From Ornithinimicrobium sufpigmenti (GTDB lineage Bacteria > Actinomycetota > Actinomycetes > Actinomycetales > Dermatophilaceae): DNA of 64,000 nt. The position numbers and the translations under genes were made by a program. Where the stretch lies: assembly GCF_004322775.1 (NCBI RefSeq), contig NZ_CP036403.1:558001-622000 (forward strand). Reading direction: 5' to 3'. The notes under the pieces were generated by a model. It worked only from the letters and a program-made list of their open reading frames with translations, had not been told where the DNA came from and ran no database searches. Of the stretch, positions 2,262-12,100 are shown one piece after another. Position 1 is the first letter of the stretch; every line of letters starts with the position of its first letter.

Positions 2262-2511
2262 TGGACAATCACATCGCTACGAGCACATCGCCGCAACCGT
2301 CCGCCCGGTCCTCCCCCCTCACTCGCATCTCGCGCTCGGGGTTGCGTGAGACTGAGTGGTGGAGCCGACCACAAGGTCGGGATCGACGGGCCGGGGTCAT
2401 GGCCCCGTTGCGGAAGCAATACCTGAACCTGGGTGCACGGTCCTTCATCGCCGGTGTCAGGTACTACACACTGGGGGGAGTACCGACCGCAACGTCGACA
2501 AGGAGTCACAC
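2262..2511. other. Intergenic leader region before the four-CSD gene
   Basis: With the hairpins above, this forms a gene-free stretch of about 300 nt. It presumably holds the promoter and a long 5' leader of the cold-shock-domain gene, as is usual for cold-shock genes. Small dyads are visible, for example GGTACT/AGTACC around 2460-2483. No convincing -35/-10 pair or open frame with a ribosome site was found. Confidence 0.35.
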
Positions 2512-3456
2512 GTGACCGAGGGAACCGTCCGCTGGTTCGACGCCGATCGTGGGTTCGGCTTCATCGCCCTCGGGCAGGAGGCCGAGGACCTGTACGTGCA
2601 TGCGTCCGAGATCGTCAGCGACGCCGCGATCAAGCTGCTCCGGGAGGGGCAGGTGGTCGAGTTCGAGATGGGCGAAGGGGAACGAGGCCCGCAGGCGCGC
2701 CGCGTCCGGGTCATGGCCGACCGGGCCGCCGATACACCGCTGGGCCTGCTCGGCACCGTCTCCTGGTACGAGCCTGCCAAGGGGTACGGCTTCATCACGC
2801 CCGACGGCGGTGGTGCCGAGATCTTCCTGCACAGCTCGGCCATCGTGGGCGGCGGCGTGGTGTGGGAGGGGCAGCGGGTGGCGTTCCTCGTCGTCGAGGG
2901 GGAGAAGGGCCCGCAGGCTGATCACCTGCTCCCCCTGGGAGACCAGGCCGGCCAGCAGGCCGCGGCAGACGACGGGGCGGACGGCACCGTGTCCTGGTAC
3001 GACGCGGACAAGGGCTTCGGGTTCATCACCCCCGAGTCGGGCGGCCCCGATGTGTTCGTCCACGTCCGGGCGCTGTCCGACGGGCTCCCCGAGCTGGGCG
3101 AGGGCGACCGGGTGACGTACGACGCGGTCATGAGCGAGAAGGGCCCGCAAGCTCGGGACGTGCGCCTCGCGCGCCGCTCGACACCACGGGGCGCACCCGC
3201 GCCGTCGACGGTCCGCGCTCGGTCGGGACAACGGGAGGCACCGGCCGTCCCGGCGCGTGGGGGCGAGGGAGTGGTCGTGCGCTACGACGCGGAGCGCGGG
3301 TTCGGCTTCATCGCCCCGGACACGGGAGGCGCGGACCTGTTCGTCCACGTGTCCGTTCTCCGAGGCGTCGAGGCGCTGTACCAGGGCGATCGGGTCCGGT
3401 ACCAGGTGCGACAGAGCGATCGAGGCCCGCAGGCCGACCGCGTCGAACTGGTGTGA
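2512..3456 (+). CDS. Protein with four tandem cold-shock domains
   Basis: GTG start with AGGAG 6 nt upstream; 314 residues. Four copies of the cold-shock (S1-like OB) fold are visible, each with an RNP1-like G[FY]GFI motif and a later [FV][LV]H motif: about residues 3-67 (DRGFGFIAL), 82-146 (AKGYGFITP), 158-222 (DKGFGFITP) and 252-314 (ERGFGFIAP). Each domain ends with a GPQA signature. Bacterial cold-shock proteins are usually single domains of about 67 residues that bind single-stranded RNA or DNA and melt RNA structure. Four domains would bind a long or multi-site RNA. The linker between domains 3 and 4 (about 224-250) is Ala/Pro/Arg-rich. Likely cytoplasmic RNA chaperone; the partner RNA is unknown. 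Confidence 0.85.
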
Positions 3457-3517
3457 GCGGGAGGGCGGCCCAGCCCGGGCGACGTGGTCAAGCCTTGCCG
3501 GGGAGCACTGCGACGTT

Positions 3518-3694
3518 CTAGCCGGGGCTCTGCGTGGACGAGCGTTGGGTGCCCTCGGGGTCCTCGGTCCTCTCGAGGGACTCCTCCAGGATGATCTCCG
3601 CCTGCTCGTGGGGGCTGTCACTGCCGACCGCCTGCTCCTCGGGCAGCAACCGCGCGCGGGTGTCGACGTCGTGCTCGTCCGGAGTCTGCGTCAT
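3518..3694 (-). CDS. Small conserved acidic protein
   Basis: A 58-residue acidic protein (MTQTPDEHDVDTRARLLPEE...) whose central LLPEEQAVGSD...AEIILEESLERTE stretch I recall in short uncharacterised actinobacterial proteins. The start is the ATG at 3694; no strong ribosome site is visible. It has no signal peptide, cysteine or membrane segment. It is divergent from the secreted peptide genes and shares a 191-nt intergenic region with them, so it may be co-regulated. Function not recognised. Confidence 0.6.
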   Translation of the reverse strand: MTQTPDEHDVDTRARLLPEEQAVGSDSPHEQAEIILEESLERTEDPEGTQRSSTQSPG

Positions 3695-3732
3695 GCGGTG
3701 ACGATACTCGCGCCCTGCCCAGGGTGCGGGTT

Positions 3733-3752
3733 CGTTCGGGATCGTTCGGGAT
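3733..3752. repeat. Two direct 10-bp repeats, possible operator
   Basis: CGTTCGGGAT occurs twice head to tail in the divergent intergenic region between the small acidic gene and the first peptide gene. A helical-turn period of 10 bp fits a binding site for a DNA-binding protein such as the nearby HTH regulator; this is inference. Confidence 0.4.
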
Positions 3753-3885
3753 CGATGCATGTGCCGTCCGCCCCGACGACAGTGTCCGAGGACGGGTTCC
3801 CGTCACCACGGCGCTCACGCAGGGACGCGAGGTATGCCGTGCGGTCATCGTGCGTGACCACATCCACCAACGAAGGGAAGTACCC

Positions 3886-4029
3886 ATGAAGCGCATCGTC
3901 CGTACCGTCCTCGTCGGCACCGCCACCGTCGGCATCGCCGTCGGGATGGCCATGCCCGCCAGCGCCGTCGAGCTGCTGCCCGGCGGCTGTCACATCCTCT
4001 TCGAGCGGGTCTACTGCCAGATCCGCTGA
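3886..4029 (+). CDS. Small secreted two-cysteine peptide 1
   Basis: A 47-residue precursor starting MKRIVRTVLVG with a GAAGGGAAG ribosome site 5 nt upstream. Residues 1-27 form a clear Sec signal peptide (KR positive end, hydrophobic core, A-S-A cleavage motif). The predicted mature peptide is only 20 residues (starting VELLPGG), with two cysteines eight residues apart and the ending CQIR. Extracellular formation of a small disulfide loop is plausible. The next gene encodes a peptide of the same design ending CEIR. It lies upstream, same strand, of a large HTH-NB-ARC-TPR regulator. No known family recognised; a signal peptide, bacteriocin or other secreted factor are the options. Confidence 0.7.
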   Translation: MKRIVRTVLVGTATVGIAVGMAMPASAVELLPGGCHILFERVYCQIR

Positions 4030-4039
4030 CCAACCACAC

Positions 4040-4075
4040 GTGCCGCGCACCGCAGCCCGTCGCGGTGCGCGGCAC
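4040..4075 (+). terminator. Perfect 14-bp hairpin after peptide gene 1
   Basis: GTGCCGCGCACCGC (4040-4053) and its exact reverse complement (4062-4075) surround an 8-nt loop, 10 nt after the stop codon of peptide 1. No U tract follows, so it may be an I-shaped terminator, a partial terminator or an mRNA-stabilising stem between the two peptide genes. Confidence 0.65.
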
Positions 4076-4134
4076 CTGCCTCAACCCACTGCACGGCCCG
4101 GCGTCGAAGCCGGCCACCACCATCAGGAGGATGT

Positions 4135-4269
4135 ATGAAGAAGCGCACCATCTCTGTTCTCACCGCCGCGGCCCTGGCCCTCGGGCTGTCCGTCGGGGCT
4201 GCTGGGGCGGCCCAGGCCACCCTCTGTGGTCACTGGACCGGCCAGGGGATCGTCTGCGAGATCCGGTGA
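4135..4269 (+). CDS. Small secreted two-cysteine peptide 2
   Basis: A 44-residue precursor with a strong AGGAGG ribosome site 4 nt before the ATG at 4135; an ATG at 4131 is in another frame and is not used. Residues 1-28 form a Sec signal peptide (MKKRTISVLTAAALALGL... ending AQA). The mature peptide would be TLCGHWTGQGIVCEIR, 16 residues, with cysteines nine residues apart and the same C-terminal [VY]C[QE]IR ending as peptide 1. The strong ribosome site suggests high expression. Too short for confident family assignment; two adjacent genes of the same plan are the main evidence that both are real. Confidence 0.75.
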   Translation: MKKRTISVLTAAALALGLSVGAAGAAQATLCGHWTGQGIVCEIR

Positions 4270-4291
4270 TCCGCTGACCCGAGCACCGGAC

Positions 4292-4326
4292 GCGGGGCCC
4301 GAGCCGTAGGGGGGCTCGGGCCCCGC
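4292..4326 (+). terminator. Rho-independent-type terminator after peptide gene 2
   Basis: GCGGGGCCCGAGCC (4292-4305) pairs perfectly with 4313-4326 across a 7-nt loop and is followed by TTTG. It separates the peptide genes from the regulator gene, implying that the regulator has its own promoter or is reached only by read-through. Confidence 0.8.
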
Positions 4327-4341
4327 TTTGGGCTGGGTGGG

Positions 4342-4370
4342 TTGACCTGTTCCCCTTGCCGACGGAAGAT
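4342..4370 (+). promoter_or_regulatory. Candidate promoter of the HTH-NB-ARC-TPR gene
   Basis: TTGACC (4342-4347), 17 nt, GAAGAT (4365-4370). The -35 matches the housekeeping consensus well and the -10 moderately. It lies just after the peptide terminator and about 78 nt before the start codon. Confidence 0.4.
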
Positions 4371-4447
4371 CGACGCCGGGTCCCCTGCTGGGTTCAATGC
4401 CGAGTCCAGGGTCGAGTCCCTTGGCGGACCCGCTCGGGAGGAGAACC

Positions 4448-6916
4448 ATGACGTCACCTGCGCAGCCGGGTCTCGGCGCGCCGCCAGCGCCCGTCGGGGC
4501 GGCCACCATCGACGACCTGACCGGCGTCCTGCGCGAGCTGAGAGCCTGGGCGGGCAACCCGTCATACGCAGCGCTCGCCCAGCGCGTTGCCAGGGCCCGG
4601 CTGGCCCGCGGTGTGCCCCGCAGCGAGGCGGTCCCGGGCCGGGTGACCGTCTACGACTGCTTCCGTGAGGGGCGGCGGCGCCTCGACATGGAGCTCGTCC
4701 TCGACCTCGTCACCGCTCTGGGGGCCGGTCCGGACGACCGGGTCCGCTGGCGCCAGGCCGTTCGGGCGGTGCTGACGCCCGGCGCGGGACCGGTTCAGGC
4801 CCAGGTGGTGGCCGACCCACCGGTGCCATCCGTCGTCGGCCGCGGAGCGCAGTGCACGCAGGTGCTGGACGCGGCGGCGCACGGTCCCGTGGTCATCACC
4901 GGGATGGCCGGGGTGGGCAAGACCTCGCTGGCCCTGCGTGCTGCACACGAGCTGGCCGATCGCCTGGAGGCCGCGGTGCTCCTGCTCGACCTGCAGGGCT
5001 CCTCCGCGGACCAGCGCCCCGTCGACGTGGGCGCAGCGGCGGCAGCTCTGCTCCAGCAGCTGAGTCCTGAGGACCAGCCCACCAACCTGGCCGAGGTGCT
5101 GCGAGGTCTGCGACGCGCGCTGTCGGGCAGGCGGTACGTCGTGGTCCTGGACGATGCAGCCTCCGCCGAGCAGGTCACGCCCTTGCTGCCCGAGGCTGGC
5201 GGCTGCCCGGTCCTGGTCACCAGCCGGCCTCGGCTGCCCGAGCTGCCCGGCGCGGAGGAGGTGCTGCTCACGCCGCTCGAGCCCCAGGAGGGTCTCGAAC
5301 TCCTGGCCTACGCCTCGGAGCGTCCGCTCCCGGCGGGTGAGGAAGCCACCGCCCTGGTCCAGCTCACCGGGGGACTGCCGCTGGCCCTGTCCGTCGTGGG
5401 GCGCCGGCTCGCGGCGCAGCCCGACTGGCCCCTGGCCGACCACGTGCAGGCCTACCGGAGCCGTCTGGAGCGGGCGAGCCTCGACCAGCAGGTCGAGGCC
5501 GCGCTCCAGGTGTCCTACGACGCACTGCCGGAAGACCAGCGCCGGGCCCTGCGGATGCTCTCGTGGCACCCGACGCGGACCGTGGGACGCCCGGCCGTCG
5601 AGGCGCTCGCCGGGCGGGCGGCCGAGGAGGTGCGGCCGCTGCTCGGGGGACTCGTCGAGGCCAACCTGCTGAGCGCCGTCGCCGAGGAGCGATGGGAGCT
5701 GCACGAGGTGGTCCGCGCCTTCGCCTCGGCGAGGTCGCTGGAGGACGACTCGCCGTCGCAGCGACGGGCAGGGACGGTACGCCTGGTCGACAGCTACCTC
5801 GCGCTGGCCTGTCGGGCCGTGTCCGTCCTGCACCCGGCCTCGGTGCAGGACTGGTACTGGGACCCCTGCCTGGACGACTCTGCCGGCACCGGCACCGGCA
5901 CCGGCACCGGCACCGGCACCGGTAGCGGTAGCGATACCGCCTCGGCGTGGGCGCAGGCGTTCCTGGCCGAGGAGCGCGGCAACCTGATGGCCAGCGCACG
6001 GTGGGCGGCCGAGCACGAGCTGCCGGAGCTCGCGGTGCGGCTGGCCGTCGTCCTGGCCCCCCACCTCTGGCAGCGCGGCGGGATCGACGCGACCTTCCAG
6101 CTGCACCTCGCGGCCCGGGCAGCGGCGCTGCAGACCGAGGACGAGATGGCTCTGGCGCTGACCGAGCGCAACCTGGGCCAGACGCTGCTGCGCGTCGGTC
6201 GCTTCGGGCAGGCCGGTGGCTACCTGGACCGGGCGCTCGCGCACTACGGCGTGGCTGGCCACGAGGACGGGCAGATCTCCATCCTCAACGCCCTCGGCTA
6301 CCTGGCCAGCTCGGTGGGCGATGACGACCGGTCGATCTCGATCTTCGCCGACCTGAGCGGACGGCTGGAGCACGACGACCAGCGCTGGGCGATCGCCAGC
6401 AGCAACCTCGCGGTGGCGCTGGTCCGGGCAGGGCAGCGGGCGCGGGCGGTGACCATCCTCAGCGAGGTGGCCGACATCGCCGCCGACCAGGGCTGGGCCG
6501 AGCGCGAGCAGTGGGCGCTCAGCAACCTCTCCGGCCTGCTCTGCGAGGAGGGGCAGGCGGCTCAGGGTCGCCAGGCGGCAGAGCGGGCGCTGCTCCTGGC
6601 GACCGAGGCGGGCGACGAGGTCGGTCGGGCGTACGCCCTGTCGAACCTGGCCGTCGCACAGCAGGCGGGCGGTGACGGGAGCTGGGCCGTGGCCACCGCG
6701 CTTCAGGCGCTCGAGGCGGCGCGGGCGCTGGAGGCACCCGACCTGGAGGCCTCGGTCCTCAACCACCTGGGCTACTTCGCCCACGCCCGCGGCGACCGGC
6801 AGCAGGCCCAGGAGCGGTATGCCGAGGCGCTCGCCGTCGCGGAGCGGATCGGCGAGGCCAGCGAGGCCCGCCGCGCCCGCGACGGCTTGGCCGAGCTGGA
6901 CGTGGCCGTCGGGTGA
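4448..6916 (+). CDS. HTH-NB-ARC-TPR regulator (STAND ATPase)
   Basis: 822 residues; the ATG at 4448 is preceded by GGAGGAG. Three parts are visible. Residues ~17-100 form an XRE-like helix-turn-helix region as in actinobacterial regulators of this type. Residues ~125-440 are an NB-ARC NTPase: Walker A GMAGVGKT with K158, Walker B VVVLDDA with D235/D236, a TSRPRLPELPG sensor and a GLPLAL motif. From ~520 to the end are TPR-like helical repeats. A (Gly-Thr)6(Gly-Ser)2 linker at residues 480-495 separates the NB-ARC part from the repeats. STAND proteins of this layout act as ligand-triggered switches in which the repeats sense a ligand and NTP binding drives assembly. The upstream secreted peptide genes are candidate ligands. 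Cytoplasmic; DNA target unknown. Confidence 0.85.
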   Translation: MTSPAQPGLGAPPAPVGAATIDDLTGVLRELRAWAGNPSYAALAQRVARARLARGVPRSEAVPGRVTVYDCFREGRRRLDMELVLDLVTALGAGPDDRVRWRQAVRAVLTPGAGPVQAQVVADPPVPSVVGRGAQCTQVLDAAAHGPVVITGMAGVGKTSLALRAAHELADRLEAAVLLLDLQGSSADQRPVDVGAAAAALLQQLSPEDQPTNLAEVLRGLRRALSGRRYVVVLDDAASAEQVTPLLPEAGGCPVLVTSRPRLPELPGAEEVLLTPLEPQEGLELLAYASERPLPAGEEATALVQLTGGLPLALSVVGRRLAAQPDWPLADHVQAYRSRLERASLDQQVEAALQVSYDALPEDQRRALRMLSWHPTRTVGRPAVEALAGRAAEEVRPLLGGLVEANLLSAVAEERWELHEVVRAFASARSLEDDSPSQRRAGTVRLVDSYLALACRAVSVLHPASVQDWYWDPCLDDSAGTGTGTGTGTGTGSGSDTASAWAQAFLAEERGNLMASARWAAEHELPELAVRLAVVLAPHLWQRGGIDATFQLHLAARAAALQTEDEMALALTERNLGQTLLRVGRFGQAGGYLDRALAHYGVAGHEDGQISILNALGYLASSVGDDDRSISIFADLSGRLEHDDQRWAIASSNLAVALVRAGQRARAVTILSEVADIAADQGWAEREQWALSNLSGLLCEEGQAAQGRQAAERALLLATEAGDEVGRAYALSNLAVAQQAGGDGSWAVATALQALEAARALEAPDLEASVLNHLGYFAHARGDRQQAQERYAEALAVAERIGEASEARRARDGLAELDVAVG
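5885..5932 (+). repeat. In-frame hexanucleotide repeat (GGCACC)6 plus (GGTAGC)2
   Basis: Six perfect GGCACC units (5885-5920) followed by two GGTAGC units code for (GT)6(GS)2. Slippage would add or remove Gly-Thr pairs without breaking the frame, so it could tune linker length between the NB-ARC and TPR parts. Confidence 0.9.
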
Positions 6917-9146: not shown

Positions 9147-12100
9147 ACCCCGCCCGTGCACCGCATACCCTCGATGAGGCCCGTCTCGACGCGGTCTCGC
9201 GTGCCCGCGCGAACTGGCGGCACGAGGTCGCCGAGCTCGGGGGTCCCAACACCCTGCTGTGGCACCGCACCTCGCTGACCGGCACCTTCGACCTCAACCT
9301 CGCCCACCCCGGCGGCGTGGCCAAGCTGCTCTCGGGACGCCCCACCCCGCTCTCGGACCTGGTCCGCGAGCAGGTCGCGTTCACCGACGCCGCCCGCCGC
9401 ATCGGCGGCATCCGAGACAAGATCTCCGAGCTGCGGCGCGAGCACGGCATCGAAGCCGGCTTCCTGGCGATCGGGCTGGCGACCTGGGACCTGCACCGGG
9501 TGCTCGTGCCGCCGCGGGCGCCGGTGCTGCTGCGGTCCTGCACCATCACCCCGACCGACCCCGCCCACTCCGACTTCGTGCTGCAGCTGCACGAGGACGT
9601 CGTCTTCAACCCGGTGCTGGAGCACTACCTGCGCAGCGAGGTCCACCTGCAGCTCAACCCCGAGATGCTCGTCGGCCTCTCGGCGCAGAGCCACGGCTTC
9701 GACCCGCGGCTGACCTACCAGGCGCTGGAGGACATCTGCGGGGAGATGAAGGGGTTCGCCATCGGCCCCCAGATGGTGATCAGCACCTTCCCCTGGGCCA
9801 AGCTGCCGCTCGTCACCTCCTACACCGGTGAGGTCGAGCCGCTGGCCGCCAGCGACGTGGTCGCGGCCCTGGCCGGCGCCGACGTGGCCCTGCCCTCCCC
9901 GGGGCCCGACCCAGACCGGGCCGAGGATCCCCGGCACGAGCTGAACGCGCTGGACGCCGACCGCTCCCAGCGGCTGGTCATCGACGAGGTGGTGCACGGC
10001 GGCAGCCTCGTCCTCGACACGCCCAGCGGCACGGGCAGCACCCAGACCATCGCCAACGTCATCGTCGGGGCCCTGTCGGAGGGGCGCCGCGTCCTGGTCT
10101 GCTCCGAGGAGCGCTCCGCCCTCGAGGCCCTGCAGCGTCGCCTGCAGCACGTGGGGCTCGGCGACCTGTGCCTGCACCTGGCCGAGGACCCGGTCTCCAT
10201 GCGCGCCACCCTCGACGATGCCCGGCAGGCGCTGGACCGCCTGTCCGAGGAGCCCGAGCCCGACCTGGGCGCCGACCCGCTGCCGGCCCGCGAGGACGCC
10301 CTGGCCGTGCTGCGCCGGGAGCAGCAGGTGCTGCATCGCGAGCACGAGCCGTGGGGGCTGAGCCTGGCCGGCACGCAGGACGACCTCGCGGAGCTGGCCG
10401 CTCGCGACCACCCGCCCGCCTCCCGGATCCGGCTGCCCGGCGCGGTCCTGCGCACCCTGACCGAGGAGCGGCTCTCGGAGGTCACCGACGCCCTGATCGA
10501 GGCCGCCGATGCCGGGGCGTGGTCACGCTCCCGCATGGAGGACCCCTGGTATGCCGCCCGCCTCGCCTCCACGGACGAGGCCGGCCGCGCCACCGAGGTG
10601 GTGGGCAGGCTGGTCGGCGGGGAGTTCACGGCCGCCCGGGAGCTGGCCGAGCGGATCTGCAAGAAGGCCGGGATGCCGGTCCCGGCGTCGTTGCAGCAGT
10701 GGGCCCACCGGCTGGGCCTCATCGCTCGAGCGAGCGAGACGCTCGACATCTTCTCACCGTCGATCTACGACGCCCCCCTCGACGAGATGGTGGCGGCGAC
10801 CGCGGCCCGCGACGAGCTCGCCGAGCGGCCGGGCGCGGTCACCCGGGCCCGCATGCGCCGCCAGGTGCGCCAGCACCTCCGCCCCGGCACCCCGCCGGCC
10901 GACCTGGCCCAGCGGGTCCGGCTGGCGCGGGACGAGCGCAACGAGTGGGAGCAGATCGCCGGGAAGGCGGCCCGCCCCAACGCGCCCTACGAGTGGGAGG
11001 CGGCGGTCGCGGCCCACGCGCCGATCGGTGAGGACCTCGGCTGGCTCGCCCAGGTGCTCGAGGGCACCGCGACCGGGCACGAGCTCTTCACCAGCCACCT
11101 GGACATCGTGCTGGAGCGCCTGGTCCGCCTGGACGCCCGCAGCGACCGCGCCGCCGTGGCCGCCCAGGCCCACCCGCTCCTGGCCCCCCTGCGCGAGGCG
11201 GGGCTGGGCGAGCTGGTGGACGACCTCGCCCGGCGGGGCATGTCCCCGGAGCGGGTTGCCGCCGAGGTCCGTTTCGTGCACCGCAGCTCGGTGCTGGACC
11301 ACCTCACCTCCGACGAGGTGCCGCAGCAGGTGCCGGCCGAGGCCGTGCGGGAGGCCGAGCGCGCATTCCGGACGGCCGACCGTGCCCACCTGCGCCGCAA
11401 CGCCCTCCGGGCCCGTCGGGCGGTCCTGCGCCGCCTGCGGCGGGCTCTCACCGGCCACTCCTCGCAGGCCGGCGCCTGGCAGCGGGCGCTGGACGAGGCA
11501 CGGGTCGGCGCGGTCGACGCGCGGGCGATCATCAGCCGCGCCCCCGACATCGTGCTGGCCGCCCGGCCCGTGGTGCTGGCCAGCCCGCTGGCCGTCCCCG
11601 CGGCCCTGCCGGCGGACCTCGCCTTCGACCTGGTCATCGTGGACCGGGCCGGCCGCACCACGACCGCCCGGGCGGTCCCGGCGCTGGCTCACGGCCGGCA
11701 GACGATGATCGTGGGGGACAGCGGCGGTCCCGGGCCTCGACAGTTCAGCGTCGTCGCCGACCCGAAGGCCGAGCGTGAGGCCGCGGCGGAGGAGCCGAGC
11801 GGTTCGTTGCTCGACGACGCCGCCACGGTCCTGCCCGTGCGGCACCTCAAGGTGCACTACCGCGCCCTCAACCAGGGACTCGTCGCACCGCTCGCCGCCC
11901 TGATGCCCGTCCCGGTGCACTCCTTCCCTGGCGTCGACCGCGGACCGGGAGTGCGGGAGCACGTCGCTGAGGGCGGGGTGGCCGCCCAGGTGTCCGCCGG
12001 GGTGGGCCTGGCGCTGGAGCACGCTCGCCGGCACCCGCACGACAGCCTGCTGGTGGTCACCGACGACGACGCCGGGGCCGAGGACGTCGGGATCGCGCTG

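Follow-up and report, generated by a model that had tools for sequence, protein, structure and literature searches.

Within the 64,000-nucleotide stretch of Ornithinimicrobium sufpigmenti DNA that we analyzed (contig NZ_CP036403.1, positions 558,001 to 622,000; here called the window), two small genes for secreted-looking peptides, A and B, lie upstream of a gene for a regulator that combines a helix-turn-helix (HTH) region with an NB-ARC domain and tetratricopeptide repeats (TPRs) (Table 1). The precursors, of 47 and 44 aa, end in C-x8-C-Q-I-R and C-x9-C-E-I-R, respectively. Each follows a Shine-Dalgarno-like sequence and carries a basic n-region, a hydrophobic core, and an A-x-A motif, the signal peptides having been called by eye and with a hydropathy script rather than SignalP and the cleavage sites by eye. 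Neither precursor matched a Pfam family, and A had no match in NCBIfam. These two genes, and a regulator with K158 and D235/D236 in its NB-ARC domain, had been described in an earlier sequence-only reading of the locus and are present as stated there, with PF00931 and PF13424 matches confirming the domains. The B stop codon and the regulator start are 178 bp apart, and a scan of positions 3440 to 4700 found neither a T-tailed terminator nor a sigma-70 consensus promoter. Strong hairpins follow both A and B, and two further peptide genes of this genome introduced below, A2 and C, are likewise trailed by strong hairpins; on account of these structures, transcripts of the peptide genes seem to be short and to stop ahead of the regulator gene.

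Translation of the regulator probably starts at ATG 4448, after the Shine-Dalgarno-like GGGAGGAG, a longer reading frame from 4397 being less likely. With its intact Walker A and B motifs and its sensor repeats, the protein has the makeup of a STAND regulator. The HTH region was modeled as all-helical (mean predicted local distance difference test score, 91.3), and its nearest structures in PDB were those of the XRE-type proteins ClgR and C.Esp1396I, both weak matches (best E 0.58, probability 0.92). Homologues of the regulator at E <= 1e-40 were found in 3 of the 31 genomes of the genus, and a search for the HTH in 396 genomes of the phylum (E <= 1e-8) returned the own genome only, with 13 candidates scored in each genome shown. 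A role as a defense system was rejected (no PADLOC match). Inside the regulator gene, GGCACC simple repeats (5882-5935) encode a Gly-Thr stretch that is absent from its two genus homologues.

Table 1. Features of the peptide-regulator locus, in window coordinates
Feature	Position	Strand	Basis
Predicted activator site: 10-bp direct repeat in three copies, GTGCGGGTTC GTTCGGGATC GTTCGGGATC	3724..3753	+	Common to A2 locus; in other genera, close to regulators with this type of HTH
Predicted -10 box, CAGTGT, 26 nt 3' of repeat	3780..3785	+	YANNNT offset pattern
Peptide A precursor, 47 aa; predicted mature VELLPGGCHILFERVYCQIR	3886..4029	+	Open reading frame, homologues; cleavage by eye
Strong hairpin 3' of A, ahead of B; may be a terminator or an attenuator	4037..4078	+	-34 kcal/mol, z -5.75
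Peptide B precursor, 44 aa; predicted mature TLCGHWTGQGIVCEIR	4135..4269	+	Open reading frame, homologues; cleavage by eye
Strong hairpin 3' of B; possible end of peptide transcript ahead of regulator gene	4282..4334	+	-46.2 kcal/mol, z -5.89
HTH-NB-ARC-TPR (STAND) regulator, 822 aa; predicted transcriptional activator	4448..6916	+	Domain and profile matches
N-terminal HTH region, GRVTVYDCFREGRRR type	4511..4780	+	Alignment A4; all-helical model
NB-ARC domain; Walker A K158, Walker B D235/D236	4883..5521	+	PF00931, E 3.6e-14
TPR region	6155..6847	+	PF13424, E 1.3e-16; PF13176, E 3.2e-07

A DNA element links the peptides to the regulator. The upstream regions of A and of its paralogue A2 share a stretch identical at 26/26 bp, about 140 to 150 bp upstream, with (GTTCGGGATC)2 inside it (blastn, E <= 1e-3); the same comparison aligned the genes, the hairpin, and one weak match lying elsewhere, and by eye CCCGTCACCACGGCG is likewise shared, between repeat and gene. 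At up to 3 mismatches of 19, the repeat occurs at three places in the 4.17-Mb genome, in one orientation (reversed control, none). The third place pointed, without prior knowledge of it, to an unsuspected 40-aa two-cysteine precursor, C (MKRTTAVITLVLGMFLVGAPQATAAVQIGCHPTMGWCYLK), which has a clear Shine-Dalgarno sequence and, as in A and B, a C terminus of the form C-x-aliphatic-basic. In contig coordinates, two of the three peptide units are not at the regulator but 1.4 and 3.5 Mb from it (the latter distance is about 0.66 Mb the other way if the contig is circular). When 526 kb of partly overlapping loci were scanned for tiny two-cysteine Sec-like reading frames, by criteria fixed after the four had been seen, only A, B, A2, and C emerged. 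The A2 gene (L034:8065-15628, ~1.975 Mb) has as neighbors a pair of genes for a histidine kinase and a response regulator and, in addition, a cluster of thiazolylpeptide type, which comprises a precursor (10833-11096; NF033400, E 1.7e-17), an ABC transporter, and a lantibiotic dehydratase-like protein.

Across genera, the repeat followed the type of HTH. A matrix built from genus sites only, and altered in one letter between first and final scoring, was applied to regulators found by protein alone. Near regulators with a T[VA]YD-type HTH, a repeat with a score of at least 20 lay within 3.5 kb at 17 of 19 loci, each above all 60 dinucleotide shuffles; at 14 of the 19 it lay within 1.5 kb of the regulator frame. 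Genome G058, of the same family, and contig L075 carry the same locus, and L100 was omitted as the same locus as L075. In a second set of six broader-type HTHs (T-V-[YV]-D-x-F), four had the repeat within stretches of 17 to 18 kb. In contrast, the repeat was near none of 23 NB-ARC genes with other HTHs, and 337 kb of control DNA, in which these loci are counted, gave no match; L098 and L099, with other HTHs, have no repeat, and control loci L146 to L149 and L159 are without this HTH type. The exact repeat was found in 2 of 394 genomes of the class, the second apparently in coding DNA, and, in the family of G203, in 6 of 297 genomes. In four of these six it accompanies the HTH and a lectin gene; three of the four have the HTH sequences of L082 to L084 and so are the same cases. 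Within the genus, where the G010 and G019 matches to a relaxed pattern were read and reversed-pattern controls gave about equal background, the repeat sits upstream of the regulator itself in G010; in G019 it lies beside the regulator, ahead of a gene for a secreted protein of 223 aa, after which come SdpA and SdpB. No A- or B-type peptide was found in G010 or G019, two of the three genus genomes with the regulator, so the peptides are not its constant partner.

At four loci of Streptomyces and Kitasatospora, a frame of 143 to 163 codons ends, as judged by its length, after the HTH and is accompanied by the same repeat and a lectin gene; in L086 the same HTH is fused to a membrane-like domain (by eye). 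Because HTH-only frames are paired with the same repeat, it is the HTH that appears to track the DNA site (alignment A4 holds 17 of 20 HTHs, with L081, L084, and L085 dropped as near-duplicates). The constant parts would then be the HTH and its DNA site, with sensors and secreted outputs changing around them. At L097:6329-10091 and L161:7939-12461, ARSTxYDCF instead of GRVTVYDCF goes with GTCCGGGATC-type repeats (L161 below threshold), a pairing that hints at co-variation of HTH and DNA. The TVVDCF-type HTHs at L163:11684 and L165:6943 have in common a second unit of repeat, GTGCGGATTC, as well as a CAGNAT box that lies 24 nt downstream.

At 16 of 24 distinct sites of the repeat, a set that includes L110 (found via the repeat itself) and the weak site L073, a YANNNT box, mostly CAGNNT, lies 24 to 26 nt 3' of the repeat, and the offset bins 16 to 23 and 28 to 31 are empty of such boxes. 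This offset would place the repeat just upstream of the -35 region, a position suited to an activator. At 22 of the 24 sites, the next gene starts 67 to 162 nt downstream and carries a secretion or lipoprotein leader (by eye). The presumed outputs belong to unrelated families: ricin-type lectins, lipoproteins with a Lon_C domain, lipoproteins of Agromyces, a protein whose LPXTG match is sub-threshold, a propeller resembling Vgb lyase, RCC1 repeats, an SdpC-like protein, and the peptides. Genes, repeats, spacing, and co-occurrence across genera can all be read directly from the DNA.

Several points weigh against activation of these genes by the regulator. Two of the 19 loci, L073 (17.5; 3/60 shuffles) and L079 (15.2; 2/60 shuffles), miss the score of 20, and both this cutoff and the 3.5-kb span were chosen after a first look at the scores. 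Only two of the six loci of the second set had the repeat with the initial 1.5-kb flanks, before widening; L161 (15.3) and L162 (11.2) are below the cutoff, and L163 has a second, chance-like match at 20.4. Most of the 23 control loci span only 1.5-kb flanks. Moreover, many positive loci are related (three from Agromyces, five lectin loci, L076/L085, and L071/L075), and because loci of one genus or family duplicate each other, independent cases are fewer than the counts, roughly a dozen by our estimate. At L105, L109, and L102 (the last in apparently coding DNA), an exact repeat is present with no such HTH in the surrounding 1.5 kb. As to the outputs, whose signal peptides were judged by eye, sites L035 and L080 lack a secreted gene downstream. 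In the second set a clear secreted frame follows only one of four sites (L163): the L164 product has no signal peptide, and no secreted frame was found for L160 and L165.

The peptides themselves are narrowly distributed. In a set of 5.8 billion proteins, we found nine A-type sequences, including A itself and A2, and four of B type, B and three homologues; both cysteines are intact in the A and B homologues from other sequence sets. The longest contig is 3621 bp for the A homologue P0002 and for the B homologue P0012 alike, and for this reason the A-B pair probably travels together. Differences between A and A2, by codon position, are [2,0,6] in the leader and [4,3,7] in the mature part, and the leader substitutions, mostly at third positions, appear coding-like. 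Mean identity in the A family is 84% for the leader and 45% for the mature part, a pattern seen in 35 of 36 pairs (n = 9); the B family shows the reverse, with 88% and 93% (n = 4). Peptide C is the called protein P0013, and the protein set held no relative of it besides C itself. Among 186 genomes of the family, 34 had a peptide match at E <= 0.02, yet full-length A-, B-, or C-type matches were those of the own genome only (A, A2, B, and C), and A/B as a family-wide trait was rejected; the remaining matches, only some of which were listed as loci, align chiefly with the leader and for the most part fall inside longer frames. Two candidates were discarded: a 40-aa secreted-looking frame without cysteine (L166; G058:C66, match 1827-1913) and a partial match in G133, which belongs to a longer secreted protein. 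The repeat is absent from the 3.2 kb around the L166 frame in G058, a genome that also holds the regulator.

We consider it likely that the STAND regulator activates the peptide genes and that the peptides are its secreted outputs; since the link found is a promoter element, the peptides appear to be what it controls. What we infer comprises DNA binding by the regulator, its activating role and its ATP gating, and, for the peptides, their processing, disulfide, and target. The HTH-NB-ARC-TPR protein would be an ATP-gated transcriptional activator in which an internal cue causes the NB-ARC/TPR part to release the HTH. The freed HTH would bind the (GTTCGGGATC)2-3 direct repeats, some 25 bp ahead of the -10 box, and switch on three promoters, those of the adjacent A-B pair and, elsewhere in the chromosome, of the paralogous A2 and of C. 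The products would be exported by Sec and cut at A-x-A, and one disulfide probably closes, giving looped peptides of 15 to 20 residues that end in C-x-[IL]-[RK]. Such peptides would most likely act outside the cell on neighboring bacteria, as small antagonists or as a pheromone; that they are antagonists specifically is a tentative proposal, to which we give somewhat less than even weight.

The sequence-only reading had proposed the reverse direction, with the peptides as ligands by analogy to RRNPP systems (Rap, Rgg, NprR, PlcR, and PrgX). In an autoinducing form of this idea, the looped peptides would re-enter the cytoplasm, bind the TPRs, and switch the STAND regulator, raising their own expression. 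What stands is that conserved two-cysteine secreted peptides lie beside an HTH-NB-ARC-TPR regulator, but the ligand role is not favored and seems to us unlikely, as the promoter element makes the peptide an output. A small Sec-type precursor gene (signal by eye) does adjoin an HTH-TPR gene, as in RRNPP systems, and in specificity-bearing pheromones the leader is kept while the mature part varies, as in the A family; it is this variable mature part that keeps peptide feedback alive. The mature part of B, in contrast, is conserved rather than variable, and RRNPP peptides are linear, whereas these have two cysteines. Moreover, the peptides occur beside only one of the three genus regulators, other targets lie at other loci, related regulators are paired with large secreted proteins, and HTH-only frames exist. 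RRNPP receptors too have HTH_3-type domains, which would fit autoinduction, but according to PMC10075063 they measure 250 to 500 aa; the regulator has 822 aa, with NB-ARC between HTH and TPR. Membership in RRNPP therefore fails on receptor size and on conservation of the peptide/receptor pair.

Alternatively, the repeat might be the site of another regulator or sigma factor that merely lies near these genes, the NB-ARC protein controlling something else. The two own-genome sites far from the regulator and the two-component genes near A2 and C would suit this explanation, which we nevertheless regard as decidedly unlikely, given that, in different genera, the repeat goes with the HTH subtype, and with HTH-only frames too, and not with NB-ARC genes that have other HTHs. 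That A and B are spurious or decaying frames with an accidental neighbor would agree with their narrow distribution but is highly improbable in view of the homologues with both cysteines, the matching 3621-bp contigs, the coding-like substitutions, the Shine-Dalgarno sequences, and the hairpins.

The proposed activator is reminiscent of AfsR, a large Streptomyces SARP made up of SARP, NOD, and TPR parts. Its NB-ARC and TPR parts match AfsR in PDB entry 8k60 (E 2.1e-74; query profile 109-584) and the AfsR family of NCBIfam (E 4.9e-56), the latter with 190 bits against a cutoff of 1430. AfsR likewise is an activator on tandem direct repeats, at the afsS promoter, with a gene for a small protein, AfsS, as its target; here, activation is predicted. 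However, the N terminus is an XRE-like HTH and not a SARP: the regulator has no Pfam match to a SARP domain (OmpR-like DNA binding plus BTA), and the AfsR match begins at profile position 109. At SARP sites, according to PMC10936776, the spacing of the repeats is 11 or 22 bp and their distance from the -10 is 8 bp, whereas the repeats here are of 10 bp and 24 to 26 nt from it, if the -10 boxes are right. The output also differs, consisting of secreted peptides. Membership in the AfsR group thus fails on the DNA-binding domain and the repeat spacing. The HaaT and FxSxx-COOH TPR proteins associated with ribosomally synthesized and posttranslationally modified peptides (NF041717 and NF040586) resemble the NB-ARC-TPR part (E 1.4e-67 and 1.4e-24) but at 228.5 of 1125 and 86.6 of 300 bits, far under the curated cutoffs.

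As to SdpABC, the likeness lies in G019, where the neighbors of a related regulator with the same repeat are genes of the SdpA and SdpB families and one for a secreted precursor of 223 aa. The latter has no Pfam match, and hence its label as SdpC-like rests on position. At that locus (L036:11083-13385), an actinobacterium carries an SdpA/SdpB operon together with a secreted, SdpC-like precursor, and the repeat precedes them. In the window, however, no Sdp gene lies beside A-B, the neighbors run against Pfam belonging to other families; SdpA and SdpB were seen in G019 only. Positions 2356 to 3456 of the window encode one protein with four tandem cold-shock domains (PF00313, four stretches).

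We found no report of this repeat or of the pairing, judging from titles and the openings of abstracts in a literature from which subscription journals were mostly absent. A closed circuit, with the looped peptides both output and extracellular cue of the STAND activator and one HTH/promoter pair wired to many sensors and secreted outputs across the phylum, is a doubtful extension of our reading; if true, it would be an actinobacterial cyclic-peptide quorum system with an NLR-like ATPase as its switch. Activation of secreted outputs, the explanation we prefer, supplies one group of NLR-like (STAND) regulators of bacteria with a predicted DNA site, and the putative promoter rule, with 10-bp direct repeats, about 25 nt, and a -10 box, has already led to a new peptide gene. 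It also makes testable what STAND switches may control, namely, secreted products of unrelated kinds. Finally, the tiny, probably disulfide-looped peptides would form a new family, the A branch of which keeps its leader better than its mature part.

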